A stretch of DNA of 64,000 bases from Geoalkalibacter halelectricus (GTDB lineage Bacteria > Desulfobacterota > Desulfuromonadia > Desulfuromonadales > Geoalkalibacteraceae): the NCBI RefSeq assembly GCF_025263685.1, contig NZ_CP092109.1:2357001-2421000 (forward strand). Reading direction: 5' to 3'. Below are positions 54,385 through 58,301 of the stretch, piece after piece. A program made the translations under genes and the position numbers. The notes under the pieces are model-generated. The model was not told the DNA's origin and made no database searches. It was given only the letters and a program-made list of their open reading frames with translations. Position 1 is the first letter of the stretch. Each line of letters opens with the position of its first letter.

Positions 54385-54466
54385 TGAACAGGGATGGACA
54401 GGATGGCCAGGATAAGGCATCTTCAATCCCAGATTTTATCCTGTTTATCCTGCCTATCCCTGTTAA
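54385..54466. repeat. Solo pair of inverted 3x9-bp repeat blocks
   Basis: Block one (54385-54417) reads ACAGGGATG-GACAGGATG-GCCAGGATA. Block two (54432-54466), on the opposite strand, reads ACAGGGATA-GGCAGGATA-AACAGGATA. They are separated by 14 bp between the convergent GT10 and GT9 genes. The blocks match those flanking the GxxExxY gene at 56833-57343. The hairpin could also terminate transcription from both sides. Confidence 0.85.
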
Positions 54467-55703: not shown

Positions 55704-56825
55704 ATGTCGCAAAAAATCGCCCTGATCACCGGCGTCACCGGCCAGGACGGCGCCTATCTCGCCGAATTTCTGCTGAAAAAGGGCTACATCGTGCATGGCG
55801 TCAAGCGTCGTGCGTCGCTGTTTAATACTGACCGCATCGACCATCTCTATCAAGATCCCCATGTGGAGAATCGCAACTTCATCCTCCACTATGGCGATCT
55901 CACCGATTCGACCAACCTTATCCGCATCATTCAGCAGGTGCAGCCGGACGAAATCTACAATCTCGCCGCCCAGTCCCACGTGGCCGTGTCTTTTGAAACA
56001 CCGGAATACACCGCCAATGCCGATGCCGTGGGAACCCTGCGCATTCTCGAGGCAATCCGCATCCTCGGATTGGAGAAAAAGACCCGCTTCTACCAGGCGT
56101 CGACCAGCGAGCTTTATGGCTTGGTTCAGGAAGTGCCGCAGAAGGAGACCACGCCTTTTTATCCGCGCTCGCCCTATGCCGTGGCCAAGCTCTATGCCTA
56201 CTGGATTACGGTCAACTACCGCGAGGCCTACGGCATGTTCGCCTGCAACGGCATTCTCTTCAACCACGAATCGCCCATTCGCGGCGAGACCTTCGTCACG
56301 CGCAAGATCACCCGCGCCATGGCGCGGATTGCCCTTGGATTGCAAGACTGTCTTTTTCTCGGCAATATGAATGCCCTGCGCGATTGGGGCCATGCCCGCG
56401 ATTACGTCGAGGCGCAGTGGCTCATGTTGCAGCAGGAGGAGCCGGAGGATTTCGTCATCGCGACGGGGGTGCAGGTGTCGGTGCGTGATTTCGTCGATGC
56501 CGCCGCGGCGGAGTTGGGCATCAAGCTGCGTTGGGAAGGAGAGGGCGTCGAGGAGGTCGGCGTGGTCGCGTCCGTGAAGGATGGCGATAGCGTGAATGTT
56601 TCCCCCGGGCAGACCATTGTTCGGGTTGATCCGCGCTATTTCCGGCCCACGGAGGTCGAAACCCTGCTCGGCGATCCGAGCAAGGCCAGGGAAAAGCTGG
56701 GCTGGACGGCCACCACGTCCTTGCAGGAACTGGTGAGCGAGATGGTACGCTGCGACCTGGAAGATGCCCAGCGCGATGAGCTGTGCCGTACTCATGGGTA
56801 CAGCACCTTTGATTTTCACGAGTAA
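55704..56825 (+). CDS. gmd: GDP-mannose 4,6-dehydratase
   Basis: Gmd converts GDP-D-mannose to GDP-4-keto-6-deoxymannose, the first step to GDP-L-fucose. The 373-residue SDR enzyme has the NAD(P) site [39 protein letters not shown], the catalytic YxxxK region [16 protein letters not shown] and [29 protein letters not shown]-type sequence appears as [14 protein letters not shown]. It is followed 8 bp later by the repeat element that separates it from fcl. Confidence 0.97.
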
Positions 56826-56832
56826 AAAAATC

Positions 56833-56867
56833 TTAACAGGGATAGGCAGGATATACAGGATAAAATC
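56833..56867 (+). repeat. Left terminal block (3x9 bp) of the GxxExxY element
   Basis: Beginning with TTAA, the block reads ACAGGGATA-GGCAGGATA-TACAGGATA followed by AAATC. It is nearly the inverse complement of the block at 57308-57343. Confidence 0.88.
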
Positions 56868-56898
56868 TTATATTGGTTTTTATGAAAATGGGGGGAAG

Positions 56899-57282
56899 AT
56901 GGAAAATGAGCAGATTACGGAAAAGGTTCTTGGTGCGTGCTTTGAGGTGATGAACGAGCTTGGGGCTGGGTTTCTAGAATCGGTATACGAAAAATCCTTA
57001 CTGATTGCACTTCGCGACAGAGGGTTGTGTGCGAAATCTCAATGGCCCATCCCCGTGTGTTTTCGTAAGGAGCCGGTTGGGGAATTTTTTGCCGATATTT
57101 TGGTCGAGAACAAGATTATTGTGGAGTTGAAAGCTGTAAAAAATCTAGCACCTGAACATCTCGCACAGGTGATCAATTACCTGAAGGCCACCGGTTTACA
57201 AACCGCCCTGCTGGTCAACTTCGGCAATGCAAAGCTGGAGTACCGGCGATTAAACAACAGGGTCGAAAGAATTTTCTGCTGA
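56899..57282 (+). CDS. GxxExxY protein, PD-(D/E)XK nuclease-like
   Basis: The 127-residue protein contains the family-defining GFLESVY (residues 24-30). A nuclease-like core follows, with Asp66 in FFADILVENK and Glu76-x-Lys78 in IIVELKAVKNL, the PD-(D/E)XK pattern. EHLAQVINYLKATGLQTALLVNFG comes next. The start ATG is preceded by GGGGGGAAG. The family is widespread and its function unknown. Lying between inverted repeat blocks, it may act on those DNA ends; this is a hypothesis. Confidence 0.85.
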   Translation: MENEQITEKVLGACFEVMNELGAGFLESVYEKSLLIALRDRGLCAKSQWPIPVCFRKEPVGEFFADILVENKIIVELKAVKNLAPEHLAQVINYLKATGLQTALLVNFGNAKLEYRRLNNRVERIFC

Positions 57283-57307
57283 TTTTCCATGAATCTCAGG
57301 TTTGTTC

Positions 57308-57343
57308 GATTTTTATCCTGTAAATCCTGCATATCCCTGTTAA
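57308..57343 (-). repeat. Right terminal block (3x9 bp) of the GxxExxY element
   Basis: On the minus strand it reads TTAACAGGGATA-TGCAGGATT-TACAGGATA-AAAATC, the inverse of the left block with two substitutions and one extra A. Confidence 0.88.
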
Positions 57344-57353
57344 AAGGGTTTTT

Positions 57354-58301
57354 ATGAACAAACACGCCAAAATATTTGTCGCCGGACACCGCGGCCTGGT
57401 CGGTTCGGCCATCGTGCGCCGCCTTCAGGCAGCCGGCTATGACAACCTGGTGCTGCGCACCCGCGCCGAACTCGATCTGTGCGAACAGGCGGCGGTGCGT
57501 GACTTTTTCGCCGAGGAAAAGCCAGAATATGTCTTTCTCGCCGCCGCCAAGGTGGGCGGCATCGTCGCCAACAACACCTGGCCAGCCGAATTCATCTACG
57601 AAAATCTGGCCATTCAGACCAACGTCATTCACGCCGCCTGGCAGCAGGGCGTCAAGCGCCTGCTGTTTCTCGGTTCCTCCTGCATTTACCCCAAATTCGC
57701 GCCCCAGCCCATGCGCGAGGAACATCTACTCACCGGAGAACTGGAACCGACCAACGAGCCCTACGCCGTGGCCAAGATCGCCGGCATCAAGATGTGCCAG
57801 TCTTACAATCGGCAGTACGGCACGCATTTTCTCTCGGTCATGCCGACCAATCTTTACGGCCCTAACGATAATTTTGACCTGACCAGTTCCCATGTGATTC
57901 CGGCGCTGCTGCGCAAGGTGCACGAGGCGAAAATTACGAATGCGTCGACCGTGGAAATCTGGGGCACCGGAATGCCGCGCCGGGAATTTCTCCATGTTGA
58001 CGACATGGCCGATGCCTGCCTGTTCGTCATGGAAGCACCCGAGGAGCGCCTCGCCGCCCAGGCCGCGCCGTTCTGGAATGTCGGCACGGGCACTGATGTG
58101 ACCATCGCCGAACTCGCGCGCACCATCTGCGAGGTGGTGGAGTTTTCAGGGGAGTTGGTTTTCAACACGGAAAAACCCGACGGCGCGCCGCGCAAACTGC
58201 TGGATGTCAGCCGCTTGAATGCCTTGGGTTGGACGGCGAAGATCGCTTTACGCAAGGGCCTCGCCGATACCTATGCCTGGTTCCTGCAACAGACTAAGTG
58301 A
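57354..58301 (+). CDS. fcl: GDP-L-fucose synthase
   Basis: Fcl epimerises and reduces GDP-4-keto-6-deoxymannose to GDP-L-fucose. The 315-residue SDR enzyme has the NADP site [34 protein letters not shown], the catalytic serine/cysteine region [18 protein letters not shown], and the YxxxK motif [43 protein letters not shown] follows. With gmd it supplies the donor for the GT10-like transferase at 53344. Confidence 0.97.

Follow-up and report, generated by a model that had tools for sequence, protein, structure and literature searches.

Between gmd and fcl of Geoalkalibacter halelectricus, two inverted arrays of short repeats enclose a single gene of the GxxExxY family, and arrays of the same layout bound GxxExxY genes in many other genomes. 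Anatomy, generality across homologues, an empty site in relatives, a duplicated gene overlap, turnover at junctions, a bias in orientation and a partly matching grammar of gene-bearing and gene-less copies are established here from a 64-kb window (the whole stretch of DNA analysed) and from related and more distant genomes. The best reading is a two-component element, consisting of an endonuclease and its array ends and working without a transposase. Judged from sequence comparison, we consider it probable, with appreciable room for doubt, that this is a selfish mobile element of a widespread class, nuclease-bearing and REPIN/IVS-like (IVS, intervening sequence), in which the nuclease would bring about movement. 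The recurrence of the array layout across many phyla suggests that such selfish DNA is widespread and has barely been noticed.

A one-gene element between gmd and fcl

From the letters of the window alone, the original prediction had described inverted three-unit arrays bounded by TTAA around one gene, placed exactly at the gmd/fcl junction (Table 1). Closer analysis bears out this anatomy: the two arms are alike at 31 of 34 positions, the inverted score of the locus (L042) was reached by 0 of 100 shuffles, and the neighbours match TIGR01472 on the left and NF047922 on the right. Each arm carries TTAA at its outer edge and reads, towards the gene, CAGGGAT and then CAGGAT twice, with 3-nt spacers (left units at 56837-56843, 56847-56852 and 56856-56861; mirrored right units ATCCTG at 57315-57320, ATCCTG at 57324-57329 and ATCCCTG at 57333-57339). 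GxxExxY is the sole gene inside, and no known transposase gene is present there.

Table 1. Positions, in window coordinates, of the element, its neighbours and the nearby gene-less pair
Feature	Position	Strand	Remark
Whole element, outer TTAA to TTAA	56833..57343	+	inverted arms; absent from the G001/G003 junction
Left arm: TTAA, CAGGGAT, CAGGAT, CAGGAT, AAAA	56833..56866	+	
Right arm, mirroring the left in units and spacers (3 and 3 nt)	57310..57343	-	
GxxExxY gene, 127 aa, predicted PD-(D/E)XK nuclease fold	56899..57282	+	ATG to TGA
Duplicated gmd/fcl overlap, left copy (ACGAGTAA) at the end of gmd	56818..56825	+	CATGAATAA in the sisters
Duplicated gmd/fcl overlap, right copy (ATGAACAA) at the start of fcl	57354..57361	+	CATGAATAA in the sisters
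gmd, GDP-mannose 4,6-dehydratase, left neighbour	55704..56825	+	TIGR01472
fcl, GDP-L-fucose synthase, right neighbour	57354..58301	+	NF047922
"Solo", an inverted pair from the element's array family without a gene, flanked by two convergent ORFs	54388..54462	n/a	hairpin fold

The predicted nuclease pattern D66...E76-x-K78 is indeed carried by the encoded protein, which scores far above the cut-offs of both family models (computed from residue 2 onward, 137.4 bits vs. 35 for TIGR04256, GxxExxY, and 137.8 bits vs. 22 for Pfam PDDEXK_3, PF13366), and the catalytic D, E and K are invariant in 33 of 33 aligned GxxExxY proteins. We know of no established function for the family. A structure model of the window protein (pLDDT 93.6) resembles nuclease folds, its best match among solved structures being SSO0001 (4IC1; Foldseek E 4.5e-4, Z 9.6), which we take to be a Cas4 nuclease, with restriction-endonuclease and Hjc folds ranking below; since VIA-align returns many nuclease folds at Z 6-9.6, the model names no closer relative. 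A sequence search of solved structures likewise yielded no relative (best E 0.48). Assignment to an anti-phage defence system was considered and rejected, the only PADLOC match being PDC-M36A at E 0.012 over 29 residues and no PHROG match being useful.

The proposed comparison of gmd/fcl junctions among relatives for an empty site found one in two sister species, G003 and G001, whose gmd genes are 87% and 84% alike to that of the window, respectively, at the DNA level. In both, the two genes share CATGAATAA as an overlap, and the junction has neither intervening DNA nor an array. The overlap stretch of the sisters, ATGAATAA, is present on both sides of the window element, where ACGAGTAA ends gmd and ATGAACAA begins fcl, and these copies show three departures from ATGAATAA, each of them synonymous in the gene to which that copy belongs. 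The duplicated overlap is what a target-site duplication of 8 bp, or of 9 with the following A included, would leave, as deduced for this one site from its relatives, and the same comparison shows the window element to be an insertion between gmd and fcl.

Arrays, solos and turnover across genomes

GxxExxY genes are matched in 47 of the 58 genomes of the window's class, in which we read the flanks of 96 loci (two fragments, L045 and L046, left out). A named set was added from a scan seeded with the LGPGLLES clade; it comprises the best 80 of at least 593 matched stretches (at least 589 confirmed) and so represents a single clade by its best matches. Record titles place these 80 in Bacteroidota, Planctomycetes, Chloroflexi, Cyanobacteria, Acidobacteria, Proteobacteria, Verrucomicrobia and other bacteria, together with one archaeon (Methanophagales) whose matched frame contains a stop and whose flanks hold no strict array. 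A simple lag score detected arrays at just 14 of 74 flanks because the arrays hold only three units, and we therefore used a triple-array detector and a calibrated inverted-repeat test. The strict detector, which demands three 7-mers of the same core per side in inverted orientation, is positive at 47 of 96 class loci and 42 of the 80 best-matching named ones, and, in the pooled count, at 89 of 171 loci vs. 0 of 299 control ORFs and 2 of 800 random positions. The window's own locus escapes it, which we attribute to its longer first unit. After removal of short-flank loci (5 of 171 for GxxExxY; 3 of 30 truncated ones for the four-helix family discussed below), an inverted-repeat score of at least 16 is reached by 146 of 166 GxxExxY loci, compared with 8 of 301 control genes and 2 of 82 small control genes; the other 20 of the 166 have no clear inverted flanks. 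Inverted arrays thus flank GxxExxY homologues generally, as had been anticipated, but the expectation that the CAGGAT unit would recur everywhere did not survive: it is present at 3 of the first 39 loci, and sub-families have a 7-bp core and spacing of their own.

The typical array consists of three 7-bp cores (CRCRRAN) 1-4 nt apart, and 67 of the 89 strict hits fit C....A. when read inwards, CACAGAG, CGCAGAG, CACGAAG and CACGGAG being the commonest cores. In the best array pair of these 89 hits the core-to-core distance is 8-12 and never (7,7), though 7 was allowed. Once L041 and L064 (removed by hand) and three loci with in-frame stops (L051, L149 and L216) had been excluded, protein distance correlated with core distance (r 0.263 in a Mantel test, a value attained by none of 2000 permutations) and not with spacing (r 0.01), and we dropped repeat period as a covarying trait. 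Covariation of core and protein is what recognition of the core by the protein would give; it could also arise from joint inheritance of a gene and its ends. Beyond cellular chromosomes, a search with the L047 protein matched 8 plasmid records and no phage record, and two GxxExxY loci lie on viral contigs, one of which (L126) passes the strict detector; the other (L125) fails it, with flanks that look array-like by eye.

Genes of the four-helix S23 family (TIGR02436), matched in 42 of the 58 class genomes, are enclosed in the same manner. Inverted arrays occur at 24 of 27 S23 loci by the looser score and at 14 of 27 by the strict detector, with core distances of (7,7) in 12 of the 14 and (8,7) in the other 2, and 21 of the 27 genes lie in sense with both neighbours. 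Across loci L075-L104 the inverted period-7 arrays are built of GGTGATT, GGGGACT, CGTAAAA and other units. Two unrelated proteins therefore share one layout with a different repeat period. The IVS of Coxiella, as described in the literature, carries tandem heptamers beside an S23 ORF inside terminal inverted repeats and is excised by RNase III (PMC4990558).

The CAGGAT arrays are also dispersed on their own. CAGGATNNNCAGGAT occurs, at up to one mismatch, 5 times in the 64-kb window vs. 0.23 expected, and the whole genome holds 35 exact places and 122 at up to one mismatch vs. 7 for the reversed pattern. We read 17 other array places. Eight form inverted pairs, separated by 40-250 bp, that enclose no GxxExxY gene (L001, L005, L009, L014, L018, L022, L026 and L027, where L014 is the solo of Table 1), 5 are short matches lacking a mirrored partner, and in the remainder the arrays are unpaired or on the same strand. 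A stop-to-stop frame of at least 150 codons contains 9 of the 17, including all 5 unpaired short matches, and the other 8 fall outside any such frame. Four solos fold as DNA hairpins (z -3.5 to -9.5), among them that of the window (z about -5), 2.4 kb upstream of the element. The arrays proposed as parts of the element are thus present, yet the CAGG(G)AT array is not peculiar to the GxxExxY gene. Likewise, the possibility that arrays stand equally often beside unrelated genes, which would have undone the element model, has to be split: gene-less inverted pairs are common, but strict triple arrays enclose none of the 299 control genes. As close-set hairpins of the GxxExxY array grammar, the gene-less pairs are what would be expected of non-autonomous derivatives or of target sites. 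At four places in this genome (L012, L030, L033 and L034, near 2.17, 4.03-4.04 and 4.11 Mb), CAGGAT arrays and CGAACGCAGAT-type sequences form longer repeated blocks that look like several repeat families stacked.

Some solos are old. One (L009) stays in place in G000, G001 and G002, and in an old solo common to these three genomes neither same-site comparison shows a change in any of the 30 core bases, while spacers changed at 4 of 9 positions in G002 and 1 of 9 in G001; another (L018) appears lost, not gained, in G001. Inspection by eye of the gaps listed for a 68.7-kb alignment of G013 and G015 turned up no solo polymorphism of the GxxExxY array type. The same two species carry unrelated palindromic repeats of about 150 bp (L336-L346, e.g. 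CTGAATCAGTGAG...CACTGATTCAG) that are polymorphic between them.

By pattern counts, solos are found in 12 (CAGGAT), 14 (CACGAA) and 21 (CACRGAG) of the 58 genomes, and the reversed-pattern controls of the three types gave one signal in total. With a genome taken as positive at five or more matches (overlapping matches at one site counting repeatedly), gene types assigned from the 115 loci read and kinship ignored, solos coincide with same-type GxxExxY genes for CAGGAT (3 of 5 genomes with the gene vs. 2 of 53 others, p 0.003) and CACRGAG (3 of 6 vs. 6 of 52, p 0.042) and, short of significance, for CACGAA (2 of 8 vs. 2 of 50, p 0.088); the combined p, on the same terms, is 0.0009. G001 and G008 have CAGGAT solos and no detected gene of that type, and G012, G016 and G036 have CACGAA genes and no solos. 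In the cases read, core and spacer pattern are common to solos and genes of the same genome. The genes of G031, for instance, follow two grammars, CACGAAG with spacers of 1 and 2 and CACGAAT with spacers of 2 and 3 in one arm and 2 and 2 in the other, and among nine solo strings parsed there two contain a complete triple, one being CACGAAG 1,2 and the other CACGAAT 2,3.

Elements also turn over at fixed junctions. An fcl-like gene adjoins gmd at 17 of 20 gmd loci (at L133 only 40% alike), and these 17 junctions hold five GxxExxY elements in five genomes, which by hand reading belong to four array families (CAGGAT, CACGAAT, CGCAAAG twice, and CATGATG, the last a strict hit as L246), and one four-helix element with a disrupted frame, its family checked on the first 62 residues. 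Elsewhere the two genes overlap with nothing between (L128, L129, L143), are separated by short gaps (L131, L133, L140, L142, L145) or flank what by eye are gene-less arrays or remnants (L130, L132, L141). Across the order, gmd/fcl is a hotspot for array-flanked elements (L135, L136, L138, L139, L144 and window 56826-57353), and tandem gene-less copies of the resident array family lie alongside at L136 and L138.

Similar exchanges are seen at other places. At one junction with flanks 94.7 and 95.1% identical, G013 and G015 carry different elements (CACCAAG and CGCAGAG) and G011 holds a third, and at another with flanks of 81-89% a CGCAAAG element in G047 corresponds to CAGGGAT ones in G049 and G043; the swapped elements differ in their arrays too, not in the gene alone. 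G012 holds three element copies, 95-97% identical, within 3 kb, which share at least about 470 bp beginning some 8-13 bp outside the left array and differ in their left flanks. Lying among repeated flanking DNA, they could be segmental duplications, because repeated DNA follows two of them. Hand reading of this region (L335, G012:C3:165001-177000) shows the three near-identical elements among repeated fragments of an apparent PIN-domain gene. The second GxxExxY gene of the window's genome occupies the same place in G001. In G003, contigs C65 and C33 end inside what is apparently one gene (L045/L046), an orthologue of that second copy, so that the assembly breaks in the element.

Finally, orientation is biased. 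At the 139 of 171 loci with a called neighbour on both sides (32 left out; one simple ORF finder for both sets), 103 GxxExxY genes lie in sense to both neighbours vs. 141 of 287 control genes, and 4 lie antisense to both vs. 40 of 287 (p 1.3e-5). A symmetric element would insert either way, and the bias therefore likely reflects selection or a dependence on read-through.

Candidate mechanism and competing explanations

In the mechanism that we favour, inverted arrays of about three 7-bp cores each, at short fixed spacing, would form the ends of a unit around one RecB/Cas4-like PD-(D/E)XK nuclease gene, whose product would recognise its own core and cut or nick at the arrays; the original prediction had supposed that the protein may cut or pair the repeat ends. 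In this way new intergenic sites would receive a copy of the element together with a short duplication of the target (8-9 bp at gmd/fcl), and gene-less pairs of the same grammar may be mobilised in trans by the same nuclease. In the transcript, pairing of the arms would place the gene within a stem-loop like that of the 23S rRNA IVSs, an arrangement that may aid tolerance by the host, and because the element sits mostly in sense, operon-like contexts, its gene is probably expressed by read-through.

The strongest rival is homing, according to which an array pair is a natural repeat spread by other means, while GxxExxY would be a homing-type nuclease that cuts such pairs, its gene entering them when the break is repaired on a template that already carries it. 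It owes this rank to the fact that it also explains the grammar shared by gene-less and gene-bearing pairs and the swaps at one junction, where related species carry different elements; solos without a detected gene are in keeping with it, as is the gene's position splitting the array pair, in the way that an intron protects its own site. The sisters' gmd/fcl junctions, however, are without any array, the duplicated 8-bp overlap fits insertion of a whole unit, and replaced elements differ in arrays as well as in gene. We judge homing an unlikely, though serious, account of these units; solos elsewhere could nonetheless serve as homing sites.

Another possibility places the activity in RNA, where RNase III, or a GxxExxY protein with RNase activity, would cleave the stem of paired arms and the element would behave as a removable operon spacer much like an IVS. 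Such a role would suit the predicted fold of the element RNA with its arms paired (z -8), the strong sense orientation, the inclusion of the RNase III-excised Coxiella IVS among the S23 sister elements (PMC4990558) and the splicing endonucleases among the weak Foldseek matches of the GxxExxY model. But inverted arms pair regardless, a solo built of the same arms has convergent ORFs on either side (54388-54462), and processing leaves the spread, the empty sites and the turnover unexplained, and we regard this reading as improbable. That the arrays are host regulatory sites for IHF/HU, with GxxExxY a resident protein among them by chance, draws on a report of paired opposite-strand sites made of 3 or 4 tandem short repeats (PMC2700814); it seems to us very improbable, as arrays flank GxxExxY genes far oftener than control genes, sister junctions are empty or hold other array families, and the core tracks the protein. 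Chance, or an artefact of repeat-rich intergenic DNA such as the other dispersed repeats of G013 and G015 might suggest, is rejected by the control counts of both detectors given above and has a next to negligible share in our assessment.

Relation to known repeat systems

REPIN/RAYT systems are a functional analogue of the element as we interpret it. In the published descriptions, REPINs are dispersed intergenic inverted pairs able to form hairpins, of several flavours per genome, with copies of a flavour beside the cognate gene and with repeat and protein varying together (PMC3116915, PMC3733652). They differ in that RAYTs are HUH tyrosine transposases and GxxExxY a PD-(D/E)XK nuclease, in that a REP is one palindrome of 20-40 bp and a GxxExxY end about three 7-bp cores, and in that whole gene-bearing GxxExxY units turn over at junctions. 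The described 23S rRNA IVSs in turn place one small ORF within terminal inverted repeats that contain short tandem repeats, over about 0.4-0.5 kb and inside a transcript (PMC4990558), and the window element shares with them an ORF inside terminal inverted repeats that are predicted to pair in RNA. GxxExxY, however, is not S23, its core distance is 8-12 rather than 7, and its elements stand between protein genes, here gmd and fcl, and not within 23S rRNA. Membership in the RAYTs thus fails on the protein and membership in the rRNA IVSs on both protein and site. With MITEs and insertion sequences the elements have in common inverted ends, target duplication (8 bp, inferred at one site) and gene-less derivatives, but they lack an internal DDE, HUH or serine/tyrosine recombinase gene and their ends are iterated cores. 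The Rpn (recombination-promoting nuclease) family, a different one, also consists of stand-alone PD-(D/E)XK nucleases suspected in DNA movement.

There is a real chance that GxxExxY elements form a class of their own. That this would be a new class of mobile element, with a stand-alone RecB/Cas4-like nuclease in place of a transposase, iterated 7-bp cores, non-autonomous solos and the S23/IVS elements as sister class, strikes us as a tentative proposition, somewhat short of an even chance. If true, the S23 elements (period 7), including the 23S rRNA IVSs, would be the sister class with a non-nuclease protein, and both classes would explain many of the families of tandem 7-11-bp repeats in environmental bacterial genomes. 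Linking GxxExxY to mirrored repeats gives each a testable role, the repeats as ends or sites and the protein as enzyme; the covariation of core and protein would offer a ready-made range of natural specificities in a nuclease some 125 residues long, and the elements offer a frame for how 23S rRNA intervening sequences spread.

The arrays themselves have already been published, and their link with GxxExxY is apparently new: in the open-access PMC literature we found no paper that connects GxxExxY with flanking arrays. The account of Geobacter metallireducens describes multicopy 'global regulator binding sites', read as putative IHF/HU sites, and among them paired sites of three or four tandem 8-9-mers. 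Class 1 has four tandem copies of GTTGCTYN in paired sites, class 2 pairs three tandem copies of TCTCCGTS[Y] across opposite strands, and class 3 has five heptamers (PMC2700814). Classes 1 and 2 look like GxxExxY-type arrays, although the passages that describe these sites draw no link to GxxExxY, S23 genes or mobility (PMC2700814). Intergenic direct-repeat families have also been described in G. bemidjiensis. At one locus of our set (L053, G021), a GxxExxY gene is flanked by GTTGCTC(T/G)-type octamers, which fit the class 1 'IHF/HU' sites GTTGCTYN described for Geobacter metallireducens (PMC2700814).
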